Shown here piece by piece: positions 14,787-21,543 of a stretch of 21,609 nt of DNA. Source of the stretch: a virus; the IMG/VR virus record IMGVR_UViG_3300025122_000192, positions 1-21,609 of that record; one strand, written 5' to 3'. The notes beneath the pieces are model-generated. The model was not told the DNA's origin and searched no databases. It saw nothing but the letters and a program-made list of their open reading frames with translations. The translations under genes and the position numbers were made by a program. Numbering within the stretch: position 1 is the stretch's first letter; every line of letters starts with the position of its first letter.

Positions 14787-15016
14787 CGCTTCTTCCTCTG
14801 CTGCATTTCGGCCAGCCCCAGGCCGGTCGCCCCGTTGGGCACCTTTTCCTTGGCCGCGTTATGATCGGCGAACTGGGTCAGTTCGGCAGCCCGCTCGCGG
14901 GCACGAGTAACGGCGGCGGCCTTGCGCGCCGGATTGCGCTCAAGCGCTTCGGCTTCGGCCAAGGTATGCATATCCTGCTCGGCCTGGAATTCCTTGTCGG
15001 ATTTAATTTCAGACAT
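14783..15016 (-). CDS. Small helical hypothetical protein, 77 aa
   Basis: ATG 15016 shares one base with the TerL stop (TGATG). The protein (MSEIKSDKEFQAEQDMHTLA and on) is a single long charged helix of Ala/Glu/Arg/Lys, ending in a basic QQRKKR tail. Small helical proteins directly after TerL are frequent in tailed phages without assigned function. It could assist packaging or portal assembly, but nothing in the sequence proves it. Confidence 0.6.
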   Translation of the reverse strand: MSEIKSDKEFQAEQDMHTLAEAEALERNPARKAAAVTRARERAAELTQFADHNAAKEKVPNGATGLGLAEMQQRKKR

Positions 15017-16725
15017 CAGTACGGTCCCTTTCGTGTGCCTGGGCGGCTGATAACGGGAGCGCCATCATGCAGCATGTTGAAAGTCGGTTCAAAATTCAAG
15101 AGATATTTTAACAAAGTCGGAAAATCGTCGTCCTTGTCCTTGGGCGTCTGCTTCTGATCGCGCTCCATGTTGCGGCGATAATCATCCCACACATAGCGCT
15201 TCATCTGCGAGATTACGTTGACGCAGCGGGGATGCACGATGATGCGTGGGCGGTAGGTGTGCTCATCCGGCTTCAGATAGGTATTGACCTTCTTCCTGCC
15301 GATGCCGCTGTCGTCGGCAAGGTCGATCATGAAATTGGCGTTGTCGAATTCGTCCTGCCAAGTAATCTCCCGCTTGGCACCCGACGGCGAGCGCCCCATG
15401 TTCGGGTCCATCATCCTCTTGACGACGTTCAGTTCAAGCTCAAGCTCCTTGCTCTCGCTGTAGATGCGGACCTCTTCGGCATCATCCTCGATCAGCCCTT
15501 CCTCAATGACGTAGTAATCGTCGCCGGGCAGAACCATCACCCACATGAACATATGCGGCTTCCTGGGGTGCGGATCGATCAAATAAACCACCGGCCAGCC
15601 GGTGACCACTTCCAATTCCTCGACATGGTTGAACTCGACGATATCGTCGGACCCGCACGGCTGCTTCTCGGTGCCGGGGCAGAGGTCATCGACCGGGTAG
15701 CAGACGCCGCCATGCCCGAAGCACCAATGCTGCGGCGCGTCGGTGAACAGGGGATGCACCCGGTTGGAAAACCTGAGCGGCTGGCCCAGCACCCGCGTCT
15801 GCCGGGTCTGCTCATCCAGCCCTGCGGTGCGCTTGCGCACGGTTTCCTGATCCAGATGAATGTTGTCGGTGGTGATCAGGTTGACCCATTCGTAGTCCGG
15901 CTCCTTGCGCGCCCCAAGAATGCCCTTCTCGTAAATCTCATCGTAAATCCAGTCCACAGGTATGGAGGGATCATCGGGCCACGTCATCGACAGCAGGTGA
16001 ACGCCGTTGACATCCCAGGTGCGCGGCTCGTTCTCGCGCCAAATTGCGTAGGGCGGCGGTTCGTCATGGTGCATGATGTCGAAGGTGCCCGATGCGAAGT
16101 CGGAAGGGTCTTGGTCGAACGACATGAACTGCCACTGGCTCTCGCCGAGAATGTGGTCGAAGTCGTCGGGATCGCGGCAGAGGATGCGCAGGGTGCGCAG
16201 CTTTTCCGACCATGACCGCTCCCAGCTACCATCGACTAGGCAAGCCTTCGGTATCCATCCCCAGTGGCCCTTCGGACCGCCCAGCGGCTTCAGACCCGTC
16301 CAGGTAAAATATTGCAGCTTGGGCAGGAAAATAGGGTGCAGCACGGTGGTCAGTGATTCAAGCACCGTCCGCATGTTGATCGGCCCCCGGAACCATTGCC
16401 GGAAGATGTCTTCCATGCCTTCGGGGAAAATGCCGGTCGCCAGCGCCGCCATGTGGGCGACGCAGGTTTCGGTCTTCGATGAGCGGTTGCCGCCGCCTGC
16501 CCCGACGACGCGGACGCCGCCCGCCGCGAATTCATGGATTTTCAGGCAGCGGGGCGATGCCGTCCGGTAATAGAAAAGCTGGTTCTCGCGGCGGTCATAT
16601 TCGTTGGCCTCGACAACCTCACCGATCAGCGCCATCAGGCGTTCGTCGGTGAGGCCGCCAAGGTCTTCCGGCCTGACCTGGATTAAAACCTTGTCAGCCA
16701 CGTCGTTGTAGATAGTTTCATTCAT
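15016..16725 (-). CDS. terL: Terminase large subunit (ATPase and nuclease)
   Basis: TerL cuts concatemeric DNA and pumps it into the head. All diagnostic motifs are present in its 569 residues: Walker A GAGGGNRSSKT at 75-85, Walker B FDIMHHDE at 215-222 with catalytic Glu 222, coupling motif SMT at 246-248, and the RNase H-like nuclease acids D384 (YLIDPHP), D440 (RMMDPNMGR) and a D532-534 cluster (KDDDFPTLL). Between ATPase and nuclease lies an unusual Cys-rich stretch, C335, C342, C349 and C357 with H333 and H338, which may bind zinc. ATG 16725 has no ribosome binding site of its own; it overlaps the stop of a seven-codon leader in an ATGA junction. An in-frame TGA nine codons upstream excludes a longer ORF. 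Confidence 0.92.
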   Translation of the reverse strand: MNETIYNDVADKVLIQVRPEDLGGLTDERLMALIGEVVEANEYDRRENQLFYYRTASPRCLKIHEFAAGGVRVVGAGGGNRSSKTETCVAHMAALATGIFPEGMEDIFRQWFRGPINMRTVLESLTTVLHPIFLPKLQYFTWTGLKPLGGPKGHWGWIPKACLVDGSWERSWSEKLRTLRILCRDPDDFDHILGESQWQFMSFDQDPSDFASGTFDIMHHDEPPPYAIWRENEPRTWDVNGVHLLSMTWPDDPSIPVDWIYDEIYEKGILGARKEPDYEWVNLITTDNIHLDQETVRKRTAGLDEQTRQTRVLGQPLRFSNRVHPLFTDAPQHWCFGHGGVCYPVDDLCPGTEKQPCGSDDIVEFNHVEELEVVTGWPVVYLIDPHPRKPHMFMWVMVLPGDDYYVIEEGLIEDDAEEVRIYSESKELELELNVVKRMMDPNMGRSPSGAKREITWQDEFDNANFMIDLADDSGIGRKKVNTYLKPDEHTYRPRIIVHPRCVNVISQMKRYVWDDYRRNMERDQKQTPKDKDDDFPTLLKYLLNFEPTFNMLHDGAPVISRPGTRKGPY

Positions 16726-18157: not shown

Positions 18158-18304
18158 CTATTGGGGCAAAGCCGGGTTCGCCGGGGAGCTTGATCCCCGG
18201 TTGCCGAACAGGTACTGGCTCACCCACGCATCGGGAGCTTCGATATATTTATTGATATTGCTGACGCTGCCATGTTTGATTTTGTGGTCTGTGAATCCGG
18301 TCAT
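18158..18304 (-). CDS. Small hypothetical protein, 48 aa
   Basis: ATG 18304 overlaps the methyltransferase TGA in an ATGA junction and has AGGAG eight bases upstream, so translation is well supported. The protein reads MTGFTDHKIKHGSVSNINKY followed by IEAPDAWVSQYLFGNRGSSS and ends PANPALPQ. No family recognised. The next reading frame (+1) stays open past the TAG for 34 more codons, and CCC-C just before the stop might allow a frame shift; see findings. Confidence 0.6.
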   Translation of the reverse strand: MTGFTDHKIKHGSVSNINKYIEAPDAWVSQYLFGNRGSSSPANPALPQ

Positions 18305-19017
18305 AGTAGAATCTCCTGTATAGCCTTTTTGGGCGGCTCTATGAACATGTCCAGTTGATCGTATGTTTGTTCGATCCGCTTGCAGGCTATGTCGAAGTAT
18401 TTTGGCTCTAGTTCAATGCCGATGAACTTGCGGCCCAGTTTGGCGCAGGCTACTCCGGTGGTGCCGCTACCCATAAAGGGATCGACTGTTTCGTCGGCGG
18501 CAATCCAATCTACTAGCCGATACATAAGAGCGTCGGGCTTTCCCCAAGCACCCAAAGGGCCAGACATATTGCGGGGGAAAATCTGTACGCTGTTCAGGTG
18601 CTTGCGCGGATTCGGTGTGTAAGTTCGGTTGCCAAGGCAATCTTTACCAATCGCTGTCTTGCCCTTTTTCTGTGGTTCCACTTCTTGGAAAGGACCGACG
18701 TCGGCTGTTCCAGCCGCGCCGTACAAATAAATGTAGTCGTGCGTCACCCTCGGAAGATAGGGGCTGATCCATCTGCCATCTGCAAAATGCCACACCAGTT
18801 CACAACGTGGTTTTCCAAGTTTCGACTCGACCGCAAACCTCGACGGTGGGGAACAGAATGCGAGAATACTTTGAGCTTTTGGGATGGAAAATGTTGCCCA
18901 TTCCTCAAACGGCGGATCGAGAATCAGCGTTTCTATTGGCCCAAGTGTGGGCAGGATTTCAAGACAATCTCCTTGATACAGTGTGGCATCGCCTATGATT
19001 GTCGGCGTATGACTCAT
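18301..19017 (-). CDS. Solitary DNA methyltransferase (N4/N6 adenine or cytosine, beta class)
   Basis: The 238-residue protein transfers a methyl group from S-adenosylmethionine to exocyclic nitrogen of adenine or cytosine. Motif IV, DPPF at 34-37, comes first and motif I, DPFMGSGTTG at 179-188 (the SAM pocket), comes near the C-terminus, with IGIELEPKYFDIACKRI at 199-215 behind it. This order defines beta-class N6A/N4C enzymes (PF01555 type). The Phe in DPPF replaces the commoner Tyr. The length is that of a minimal enzyme without a large recognition domain. ATG 19017 overlaps the previous ORF stop (ATGA). No restriction enzyme is visible, so it may protect phage DNA or control expression (inference). 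Target site unknown. Confidence 0.85.
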   Translation of the reverse strand: MSHTPTIIGDATLYQGDCLEILPTLGPIETLILDPPFEEWATFSIPKAQSILAFCSPPSRFAVESKLGKPRCELVWHFADGRWISPYLPRVTHDYIYLYGAAGTADVGPFQEVEPQKKGKTAIGKDCLGNRTYTPNPRKHLNSVQIFPRNMSGPLGAWGKPDALMYRLVDWIAADETVDPFMGSGTTGVACAKLGRKFIGIELEPKYFDIACKRIEQTYDQLDMFIEPPKKAIQEILL

Positions 19018-19515: not shown

Positions 19516-20301
19516 CTAGGTGAAATAAACTCCCGGCCTCACCTTCTTCAGTCGGCCAGCATTAAGCAGGTCGGATATACGCTTCTTGAAATTCACCCTC
19601 TTTATCTCAGGATGCCCAGGCCAAACGGCAGCAATGATTTCCGCCGTTGTTACAGGGCCACTCTGAACATTAACAAAATCAAATATATCTCGCGCCAAGA
19701 CGGATATAATCTCACCGTTCGCAATGCGCGCGCGCCGGATGCCTTCTTGCCGGGCGCTGCGCGCAGCCTTGTCGGGACGGTTCCTGCTGGTGTGCCGGAT
19801 GTGCGCCTGCTTGCAGGGTGGACAAAGAACACTTCCCTTCCTAGTCGCCGCCCACGCCGATACCTGATGCTCGACGCTGCAATCGGGGCAACGCACCATC
19901 GCCAACTTGCCCCCCATTTTCTCATGGCTCGCCCTAACCCCAGCCAACCCAGTCTCCTTCAGCCTAGCCCTGACAGCCGGGACATGGGCAATCCTCTTCT
20001 CGGTCGTCGATGCATCACGCGCCGCCGCGCCCTTCGCCATGAATTCCTCAAGCCAACCCTCCCCCTGCGCCGCAATCCTCCTGGCCGTGGCGGCGCTCAG
20101 TTTTTCATGAAGAGGGGCGCTTACCAACTTGCGGCTGCGCGGAATTCCAAAATGCTCCTTGTACTCCACGCAATCAATAGCATGCGCGCGAAGAATATGA
20201 TTGCCAAGCTGTTGGTAATGATTGCCACAAAATAAACACTCAATCGTCGCCGAGCCAAGATAAGCGTTAACCTCATCCATCGTCTTGAATTTTTCAAACA
20301 T
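19516..20301 (-). CDS. Ros/MucR-like zinc-finger protein with second zinc site and winged helix
   Basis: The 261-residue protein is probably a DNA-binding regulator. Residues 20-54 (IECLFCGNHYQQLGNHILRA, then HAIDCVEYKEHFGIP) match the Ros/MucR zinc finger: C22, C25, H35 and H40 have the spacing CX2C-X9-H-X4-H known from Agrobacterium Ros, and the 'V-E-Y-K-x-x-F-G-I-P' tail is characteristic. A second pair set, C138/C141 and C160/C163, makes a zinc ribbon. Residues about 196-261 (GPVTTAEIIAAVWPGHPEIK, KRISDLLNAGRLKKVRPGVY) form a winged helix. MucR itself is about half as long, so the C-terminal part is an addition. ATG 20301 has only a weak AGG upstream. Its targets may lie in the adjacent repeat-rich region (inference). 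Confidence 0.7.
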   Translation of the reverse strand: MFEKFKTMDEVNAYLGSATIECLFCGNHYQQLGNHILRAHAIDCVEYKEHFGIPRSRKLVSAPLHEKLSAATARRIAAQGEGWLEEFMAKGAAARDASTTEKRIAHVPAVRARLKETGLAGVRASHEKMGGKLAMVRCPDCSVEHQVSAWAATRKGSVLCPPCKQAHIRHTSRNRPDKAARSARQEGIRRARIANGEIISVLARDIFDFVNVQSGPVTTAEIIAAVWPGHPEIKRVNFKKRISDLLNAGRLKKVRPGVYFT

Positions 20302-20378
20302 ATTGCTTGCCTAATTTTCCCAGCGATAAATATCATGACAATAATAAGAAAGCAAGGTCTTTTGTTTGAGGGATGAGC

Positions 20379-20416
20379 GGCGGGGACCCGGCCCCCAGCC
20401 CCAGGGGTGGGGGGTG
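20379..20416. repeat. G/C-rich block with imperfect hairpin
   Basis: A run of C tracts (CCCGGCCCCCAGCCCC) is followed by GGGGTGGGGGGT, able to pair with wobble and one mismatch. The right arm also pairs with CCCCCCACCC at 20652-20662 across 240 bases. G tracts on the plus strand could form other structures. Significance unknown. Confidence 0.4.
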
Positions 20417-20489
20417 CGCCGAACCGCCCATCGGGCCAAAACCTAATGATATCAATGGCTTACGCGCTAGACTGGACTGGTTCTAGTCG

Positions 20490-20505
20490 CATAATATATA
20501 TTATG
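20490..20505. repeat. 16-bp perfect palindrome
   Basis: CATAATATATATTATG at 20490-20505 equals its own reverse complement over all 16 bases. It lies some 190 bases upstream of the regulator start. It suits an operator for a dimeric protein or a melting element. Confidence 0.6.
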
Positions 20506-20668
20506 ATAAGCGCTGGCTTGGTGCTAAGGCATTGATAACGCTCAATAGTGCGCATAATGCCGGGATATCACACCGATAGGCGGCCTAAGCTGGCCGTAAT
20601 ACATGCATATGCGTCTTTTTAGGCCGTAAGCCACGGCCAGCAACGGGTCCAGCCCCCCACCCTTCCCA

Positions 20669-20677
20669 TAATCCACA
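20669..20677 (+). promoter_or_regulatory. DnaA-box-like sequence, one mismatch
   Basis: TAATCCACA differs from the consensus TTATCCACA at one position. It belongs to a set of similar sites in the intergenic region. Confidence 0.35.
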
Positions 20678-20691
20678 GTATGTATATAGGG

Positions 20692-20722
20692 GCGAAATAG
20701 ACGTGCTTCGTTTCTATTTCGC
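20692..20722. repeat. Hairpin with 10-bp perfect stem
   Basis: GCGAAATAGA (20692-20701) pairs with TCTATTTCGC (20713-20722), and two further CG pairs can form inside the 11-base loop. No T tract follows on either strand, so it is not a standard terminator. It may be an operator or a structural signal. Confidence 0.6.
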
Positions 20723-20928
20723 GCGCGCTCGCAACCGCATCGATCTTATATATATCTCCGCCTAATTTCCCCTTATCCATGTTAAGCCACCCTAGAATAC
20801 AACTATGTTTACCCTGTTGCCAGTTGCGAGAGAACGAATGTGATACACCGTTGATTTATAACGATAATCACGGGGCGATTACGGGTTGCGGGAAAACCAA
20901 GGGTGTCGGGCGCGTTTCACTGGAAATC

Positions 20929-21019
20929 TCGCAATCTCGTAATCGGGTCGATTTAATTGGGCGTAATCAATGGGTTATGACTTGTTACGAGAAGCTCGCA
21001 ATTAATCTCACAATCGGGT
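20929..21019. repeat. Imperfect direct repeat CTCGCAAT...AATCGGGT
   Basis: CTCGCAAT-CTCGT-AATCGGGT at 20929-20948 recurs, with a five-base insertion and small changes, as CTCGCAAT...AATCGGGT at 20996-21019. It supports repeated protein-binding sites in this region. Confidence 0.45.
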
Positions 21020-21100
21020 AACCATCAAAACAGTTGCGGGCGTCAATTAACCGGGCATTATCAATGGGTTACAGCGTGTCCACATTTTGCGGCATCATAT

Positions 21101-21125
21101 TAATTAACTGAATATCGGTTAATTA
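21101..21125. repeat. AT-rich inverted repeat
   Basis: TAATTAAC (21101-21108) pairs with GTTAATTA (21118-21125) across nine bases. It lies 36 bases from the perfect DnaA box. It could be a duplex-unwinding element; inference. Confidence 0.5.
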
Positions 21126-21160
21126 TTTGCGATCCCAGCTTGTAATGATGCTAGACTACC

Positions 21161-21169
21161 TGTGGATAA
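21161..21169 (-). promoter_or_regulatory. Perfect DnaA box
   Basis: TGTGGATAA on the plus strand is TTATCCACA on the minus strand, the full consensus for DnaA binding. It is surrounded by the AT-rich inverted repeat and by copies of the 12-bp repeat. Confidence 0.6.
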
Positions 21170-21277
21170 CTTGGGATAACTCTGTAACCCATTGATTTAT
21201 AGGGCAGTTGCGGGCTTGCAAAACCGCGTTAATCATTTCTCAGTTGCGAATATATATATGGTGGCGTGCATTGGATG

Positions 21278-21286
21278 TTATCCCCA
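21278..21286 (+). promoter_or_regulatory. DnaA-box-like sequence, one mismatch
   Basis: TTATCCCCA differs from the consensus TTATCCACA at one position. It is the second best match in the window and lies beside a short inverted repeat (CACAAT-T-ATTGTG, 21285-21297). Confidence 0.4.
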
Positions 21287-21350
21287 CAATTATTGTGCAA
21301 GTCGAGTGTTGCGCCTAGCCAGCCCCATTTTAAGCGCTTCTCAGGGCAAC

Positions 21351-21384
21351 AAAATGCCCGGCTAGGTGAGGGCCTAACCGGGCA
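21351..21384 (-). terminator. Leftward intrinsic terminator closing the upstream operon
   Basis: TGCCCGG (21355-21361) and CCGGGCA (21378-21384) pair perfectly, and TAGG/CCTA inside extends the hairpin. On the minus strand the stem is followed by TTTTGTT. It lies 22 bases downstream of the 45-residue ORF stop. Confidence 0.7.
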
Positions 21385-21405
21385 GAGTTTACGCTGTGCG
21401 GCGCG

Positions 21406-21543
21406 TTATAGGGATGTGATCTGGAACAATGGCGCACCCTGGTAGCCGAATACCAGATCGACGCCGAATAGGATTACGCCAGCCAGGATAGCAACGGCTA
21501 TCATTGCCAGGGTAAACGCGCTGACTTCGAATAGCCGCCTCAT
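21406..21543 (-). CDS. Single-span membrane protein, 45 aa
   Basis: ATG 21543 overlaps the TGA of the preceding gene (ATGA). The protein reads MRRLFEVSAFTLAMIAVAIL then AGVILFGVDLVFGYQGAPLF and QITSL. Two N-terminal arginines precede one long hydrophobic segment (about residues 9-33), so it should insert with the N-terminus inside. It may be a holin-like or other phage membrane peptide; no family recognised. The terminator follows directly, so it is the last gene of its operon. Confidence 0.65.
   Translation of the reverse strand: MRRLFEVSAFTLAMIAVAILAGVILFGVDLVFGYQGAPLFQITSL

Follow-up and report, generated by a model that had tools for sequence, protein, structure and literature searches.

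A dif-like XerC/XerD site with IHF-type motifs in the non-coding gap upstream of the packaging operon of a tailed phage

The non-coding gap upstream of the packaging operon in a fragment of a tailed-phage genome contains a 28 bp sequence with the architecture of a XerC/XerD recombination site, and exact matches to an IHF consensus lie on both sides of it. The motifs exceed chance expectation, the position of the dif-like site is conserved among relatives of the phage, and the combination of dif-like site and IHF motif recurs upstream of terminases elsewhere. We consider it rather probable that the gap is a control region at the packaging end of the genome, in which a site for the host XerCD recombinase, together with IHF, would circularise the genome or keep it monomeric, and of which one half is probably an origin or an equivalent assembly site. 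Binding by XerCD, IHF and DnaA, as well as the outcome of recombination, is what we infer from the motifs.

The window and its non-coding gap

The whole stretch of DNA analysed, here called the window, is one IMG/VR record of 21,609 bases and represents a fragment of a phage genome. Every called gene of the window is on the minus strand, and the gene calls include capsid genes and an SU10-type portal with adaptor on that strand. The nearest terminases found are at most 57% identical to that of the window. The genes and signals that frame the gap are the following:

15016..16725, minus strand: large terminase gene, the anchor for finding relatives
18301-19017, minus strand: N6/N4-type DNA methylase gene, part of the packaging operon and adjoining the MucR-like regulator gene
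19516..20301, minus strand: MucR/Ros-like regulator gene (PF05443, E 2.6e-7), the first gene downstream of the gap
21355..21384, minus strand: strong intrinsic terminator of the upstream minus-strand operon (z -4.5)

The gap at 20302-21405 is gene-free, with short open reading frames only (the longest of 80 aa), and is bounded by the MucR-like gene and by a translationally coupled pair of minus-strand genes ending at 21406. The MucR-like gene points to an alphaproteobacterial host for the window phage; among the control genomes, a match to the MucR family was found only in Caulobacter. Searches returned no DNA relatives of the gap region in INPHARED, no relative of the MucR-like gene in IMG/VR, no Rfam match to the gap region and no tRNA, and CtrA sites (TTAAN7TTAA) were not enriched.

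A dif-like site flanked by IHF consensus sites

The highest dif score of the whole window was found within the gap, at 20484-20511, where the arms matched in 15 of 18 positions, a value reached in 5 of 2000 shuffles of the gap. The scoring considered the arms only, against a proteobacterial consensus compiled manually from known sites. As in XerCD sites, a 6-bp centre is enclosed by two inverted arms of 11 bp whose inner halves are conserved; the outer half of the XerD arm is degenerate. The elements in and around this site, and the remaining IHF consensus sites of the gap, are:

20405..20420, minus strand: C-rich element GGCGCACCCCCCACCC, a candidate packaging (cos/pac) site
20450..20462, plus strand: IHF consensus site TATCAATGGCTTA, exact WATCAANNNNTTR, 21 bp from the dif-like site
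20484..20511, plus strand: dif-like site TAGTCGCATAA-TATATA-TTATGATAAGC (XerC arm, 6-bp centre, XerD arm), 28 bp
20525..20537, minus strand: IHF consensus site TATCAATGCCTTA, exact WATCAANNNNTTR, 13 bp beyond the dif-like site and inverted relative to the first
20548..20559, plus strand: GTGCGCATAATG, identical to the XerC half and the start of the centre of E. coli dif, a single instance read from the sequence
20965..20977, plus strand: IHF consensus site AATCAATGGGTTA, exact match, 190 bp from the DnaA box
21059..21071, plus strand: IHF consensus site TATCAATGGGTTA, left of the DnaA box at 21161
21185..21197, minus strand: IHF consensus site AATCAATGGGTTA, right of the DnaA box at 21161

The element GTGCGCATAATG, 36 bp beyond the dif-like site, is possibly a second XerC half-site.

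The most significant repeat of the gap, ATCAATGGGTTA, fits WATCAANNNNTTR, which we take to be the IHF consensus and on which the naming of the repeat as an IHF site is based. A first-pass annotation of the same DNA had raised the possibility of iteron-like sites here; the supposed iteron ATCAATGGSTTA is the IHF consensus WATCAANNNNTTR. There are five exact copies of WATCAANNNNTTR in the gap and none in the other 20.3 kb of the window, and five copies were reached in none of 1000 shuffles of the gap.

The C-rich element GGCGCACCCCCCACCC is present as an identical 16-mer in the relative G010. About 15 relatives, some with an integrase and some lacking one, have elements of the type GGCNYACCCCC ahead of the terminase, and in most of those bearing a dif-like site the C-rich element lies between this site and the packaging genes.

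Conservation among relatives

About ten relatives, with terminases roughly 50% identical, have a dif-like site at the equivalent position (L058, G010, G013, G014/G015, L076, L110, L111, L098, L090 and G019, the last with a degenerate XerD arm). Of 82 loci, 10 had a dif score of at least 14.5 on the upstream side of the terminase, whereas none of 61 did on the downstream side (p = 0.003, or p = 0.016 once redundant loci are merged). The gene caller was simple and misses small genes, so the gene maps of the relatives are rough; terminal repeats of 83-144 bp in relatives resemble assembler overlaps and were used solely as a sign of circular assembly.

Dif-like site and phage integrase look mutually exclusive. 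Among 12 complete or near-complete relatives, the site was present in none of the six bearing an integrase and in four of the six lacking one (Fisher p = 0.03, or p = 0.09 without the degenerate G019 site). A tyrosine integrase (PF00589) was not found in the dif-bearing G010, G013, G014 and G019, serine recombinases (PF00239) were found in none of the 11 relatives searched, and a ParA-type partition gene scored over the cut-off in none of 12.

An IHF element of the TATCAATGGCTTA type also adjoins the dif-like sites of L058 and L090. The IHF consensus is absent from the gaps of G010 and G013 and from the surroundings of the dif-like sites in Vequintavirus (below), hence IHF is not universal.

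Recurrence in unrelated tailed phages

The layout of dif-like site and IHF motif just upstream of packaging genes recurs in many unrelated phages. An exact scan of IMG/VR with one strict pattern (CGCATAAN6TTATGTTAA) gave at least 80 loci, and TerL was recognised in 34 listed loci by similarity to five seeds and to the terminase of the window. Among the matches listed, the strict site was upstream of the TerL start in all 34 contigs having both, and within 800 bp of TerL in 27 of these 34, with about 0.11 expected by chance per locus. The TerLs of the 34 listed loci fall into 12 clusters at 70% identity and into four groups without detectable similarity to each other. An IHF consensus was located at most 100 bp from the dif site in 14 of 65 listed non-redundant loci versus 3 of 570 control windows (p = 2e-12); conversely, dif-like sites were enriched near the IHF-type motif (5/60 versus 0/252). 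The motif GTAASCYATTGATATC was tried as an integrase arm site and rejected: tyrosine integrases were near in 3 of 80 loci and never close, and the motif is the reverse complement of an IHF consensus. It is itself common upstream of terminases and hence a poor control for terminase distance.

In the named phages of INPHARED, where the query was E. coli dif and enterobacterial phages are thereby favoured, a dif-like site was common in the lytic Vequintavirinae. The arms match in 18 of 18 positions and the centre is TGGGTA or GGTGTA, compared with TGTATA in E. coli dif. In phage Gotham the annotated direct terminal repeats (1-459 and 136567-137025) each contain the site, giving a copy per end, and in Hena1 it falls within the annotated direct terminal repeat 1-519.

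DnaA boxes, repeats and a possible origin

The first-pass annotation had described 20760-21300 as an origin-like region with a perfect DnaA box, two near-boxes and an AT-rich inverted repeat in a gene-free interval. All of these were confirmed in place, one near-box falling outside that interval; the annotation had not recorded the dif-like site, four CAGTTGCG repeats or the conserved C-rich element, nor recognised the repeat as an IHF site. The features are:

20585..20645, plus strand: GC-rich hairpin CTGGCCGT/ACGGCCAG (z -2.75)
20669..20677, plus strand: DnaA near-box TAATCCACA, one mismatch, outside 20760-21300
20821..20828, plus strand: CAGTTGCG repeat 1
21031..21038, plus strand: CAGTTGCG repeat 2
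21101..21125, no strand: AT-rich inverted repeat TAATTAAC (21101-21108) / GTTAATTA (21118-21125), z -5.1 against shuffles
21161..21169, minus strand: perfect DnaA box TTATCCACA (p = 0.008, gap shuffles)
21205..21212, plus strand: CAGTTGCG repeat 3
21241..21248, plus strand: CAGTTGCG repeat 4, adjoining ATATATATAT, position read from the sequence
21278..21286, plus strand: DnaA near-box TTATCCCCA, one mismatch

Judged against 500 dinucleotide shuffles of the gap, the perfect DnaA box has p = 0.008 and the presence of three boxes, each allowed one mismatch, p = 0.004; for the repeated 8-mers and 10-mers, p = 0.002. The whole window contains eight boxes with at most one mismatch, and since five of the eight are in coding DNA, single boxes mean little. 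The repeat CAGTTGCG occurs four times in the gap, against 0.03 expected, and once in the other 20.3 kb; it is a candidate iteron, and the three copies of ATCAATGGGTTA are better read as IHF sites. We noticed that the four CAGTTGCG copies at 20821-21248 sit among at least seven words of the type TTGCGR. A second hairpin is present at 20690-20724 (z about -1.9), and both hairpins fall in the interval that separates the dif-like site from the DnaA/IHF cluster.

Four perfect DnaA boxes (shuffle mean 0.01) and repeats were found in the equivalent gap of L090, and two perfect boxes within about 60 bp of the dif-like site in the circular G010. Since DnaA boxes are strongly clustered in the one relative and paired next to dif in the other, those of the window are probably meaningful. 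Perfect boxes are absent from the equivalent gap of L058, G013 and G014. At 3300-3610 of L090, near the four perfect boxes, there are also clustered TGTAACT repeats and a TATATATACATATA stretch, and this region is a stronger origin candidate than the gap of the window.

The earlier proposal of an origin using host DnaA is thus upheld in part: boxes and repeats are more frequent than expected by chance, the DnaA box has IHF sites on either side, and boxes recur in L090 and G010, but not as perfect boxes in all relatives. The GC-skew comparison suggested with it gave a sign change near the gap, although the skew follows gene direction, and no replication initiator gene was seen within the 21.6-kb window, the replication genes lying outside the fragment. 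G013 has a DUF1376-type gene together with DnaB. With its DnaA box, three IHF sites, CAGTTGCG repeats and AT-rich stretches, 20800-21290 is probably an origin or an equivalent assembly site for DnaA and IHF; that an origin lies somewhere within it has about an even chance.

Proposed role of the dif-like site

In the reading we favour, the tailed-phage genome has at its packaging end a non-coding control region, namely this gap, with the packaging operon immediately downstream of it. Its core would be the dif-like site, with IHF sites on both sides and a candidate packaging site beside it. A location at the packaging end would mean that terminally redundant virion DNA carries the dif-like site twice, and host XerCD would act between these copies of the phage's own site. 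With bending by IHF, which could serve as accessory factor at a phage Xer site, the infecting genome would be circularised or kept monomeric in the manner of Cre/lox in P1. The packaging-end position and the occurrence inside the terminal repeats of lytic phages favour circularisation over multimer resolution or integration. Were the window phage of the cos type, the dif-like site would be present once per genome, which would count against the model. Strand exchange by XerCD requires matching centres, and recombination between two phage copies is therefore favoured, as the phage centres mostly differ from the usual chromosomal one. Integrative phages, by comparison, retain at least part of the host dif centre (PMC5357621).

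The phages known to exploit host XerCD are mainly filamentous, micro- and membrane phages. More tentatively than for the window itself, we suggest that tailed phages of many unrelated lineages may share a so far unrecognised end-site, a dif-like XerCD site beside the terminase, often with IHF, at which the host machinery for chromosome dimers would circularise the DNA or resolve multimers. A full-text literature search, of incomplete coverage, turned up no account of tailed phages that keep a dif-like site at their packaging end. If true, the proposal would be a host-powered counterpart of P1 Cre/lox, would explain how many linear phage genomes become and stay circular by host enzymes alone, would apply to lytic and integrase-less tailed phages, and would supply a sequence signature of virion ends in metagenomic phages.

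Alternative explanations

The dif-like site might instead be an attP, by which phages lacking an integrase integrate through host XerCD at the chromosomal dif or another dif-like site, as integrative mobile elements exploiting Xer (IMEX) do. This is a serious alternative, although a less likely one. The site is present where the integrase is absent, and host-XerCD integration without an integrase has precedents in filamentous phages and in the Rhodobacter membrane phage Jorvik, which has a dif-like attB away from dif (PMC5357621, PMC10589892). No prophage of the window's family was seen at dif. The sole chromosomal relative, a prophage at 1-27300 of L110 at the end of a 290-kb gammaproteobacterial contig, joins host genes (sigma-54 activator) near 27.3 kb, away from its dif-like site; for G010, the search for the dif of its host gave no confident identification. 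The centres, moreover, vary widely and are mostly unlike the usual TGTATA, and an attP leaves unexplained both the position upstream of the terminase and the location inside the terminal repeats of lytic phages. The earlier guess of a plasmid-like prophage touches on a real XerCD-like site, albeit one that the first-pass annotation had missed.

IHF sites flanking DnaA boxes are common in bacterial and plasmid origins, and such sites lie on both sides of the DnaA box in the window. The region could then simply be a DnaA-dependent origin with iterons, its resemblance to dif being secondary; the boxes and repeats in excess of chance, more strongly so in L090, and the change of skew sign near the gap agree with this. 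We nevertheless regard it as quite unlikely: the supposed iteron is an IHF consensus, L058, G013 and G014 keep the dif-like site without perfect DnaA boxes, no initiator gene was seen in the window, and the skew tracks gene direction. A packaging region resembling lambda cosB, which uses IHF, is more improbable still. IHF would there aid terminase assembly at the C-rich element, whose conservation immediately ahead of the packaging operon extends to relatives with and without an integrase, and the dif-like palindrome would be incidental. Against this, dif-like arms are found at the corresponding position in relatives and in unrelated phages much more often than in controls, and the IHF enrichment is centred on dif. 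Finally, the region might be a promoter whose repeats serve a phage repressor or activator as operators and take no part in recombination or in an origin. Promoter-like hexamers number 8 in the gap against 2.8 in shuffles, the CAGTTGCG repeats have no assigned binder and a MucR-like regulator gene is adjacent, but operators cannot account for the dif, IHF and DnaA matches together or for their conservation, which makes this a very remote prospect.

Comparison with known systems

Chromosomal dif and the plasmid sites cer and psi (dif/xrs) resemble the window site in length (28 bp) and in having a 6-bp centre between two arms of 11 bp, the inner halves of which are conserved. The window site differs by its place at the packaging end of a tailed phage and by a centre unlike that of usual dif. 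Sites for accessory proteins are close to the Xer site in cer and psi too, where they are for ArgR/ArcA-PepA rather than of the IHF type. Small enterobacterial plasmids have Xer sites of 28-30 bp with accessory sequences (PMC11724359). As with the attP of IMEX (filamentous and Jorvik-like phages), a dif-like site is carried by the phage and the complete relatives bearing it lack an integrase gene, but here the phage is a double-stranded tailed one of ~47 kb, no integration at dif was seen, and the site is linked to the terminase. The logic proposed is that of loxP beside pac in P1, where recombination at a site near the end used for packaging turns redundant virion DNA into circles and maintains the plasmid prophage as a monomer; here host XerCD would take the part that Cre plays in P1.

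The gap resembles DnaA/IHF iteron origins (pSC101, oriC) in combining short repeats and AT-rich stretches with IHF sites and a DnaA box, but the window has no visible initiator gene and its boxes are not conserved in all relatives. Lambda cosB likewise has IHF sites beside the packaging site upstream of terminase genes; the window adds a XerCD-like site and DnaA boxes, and the packaging role of its C-rich element is putative.

Further dif-like sites

Avunavirus 18-1-2 (L393), Rheinheimera phage Barba8S (L396) and Pseudoalteromonas phage J2-1 (L397) have dif-like sites in large non-coding gaps, away from annotated terminases. A second class of dif-like site, with the XerC arm ACGTCYGATAA, is common to the four distant phages L090, L098, L111 and G019 (L148 3969).
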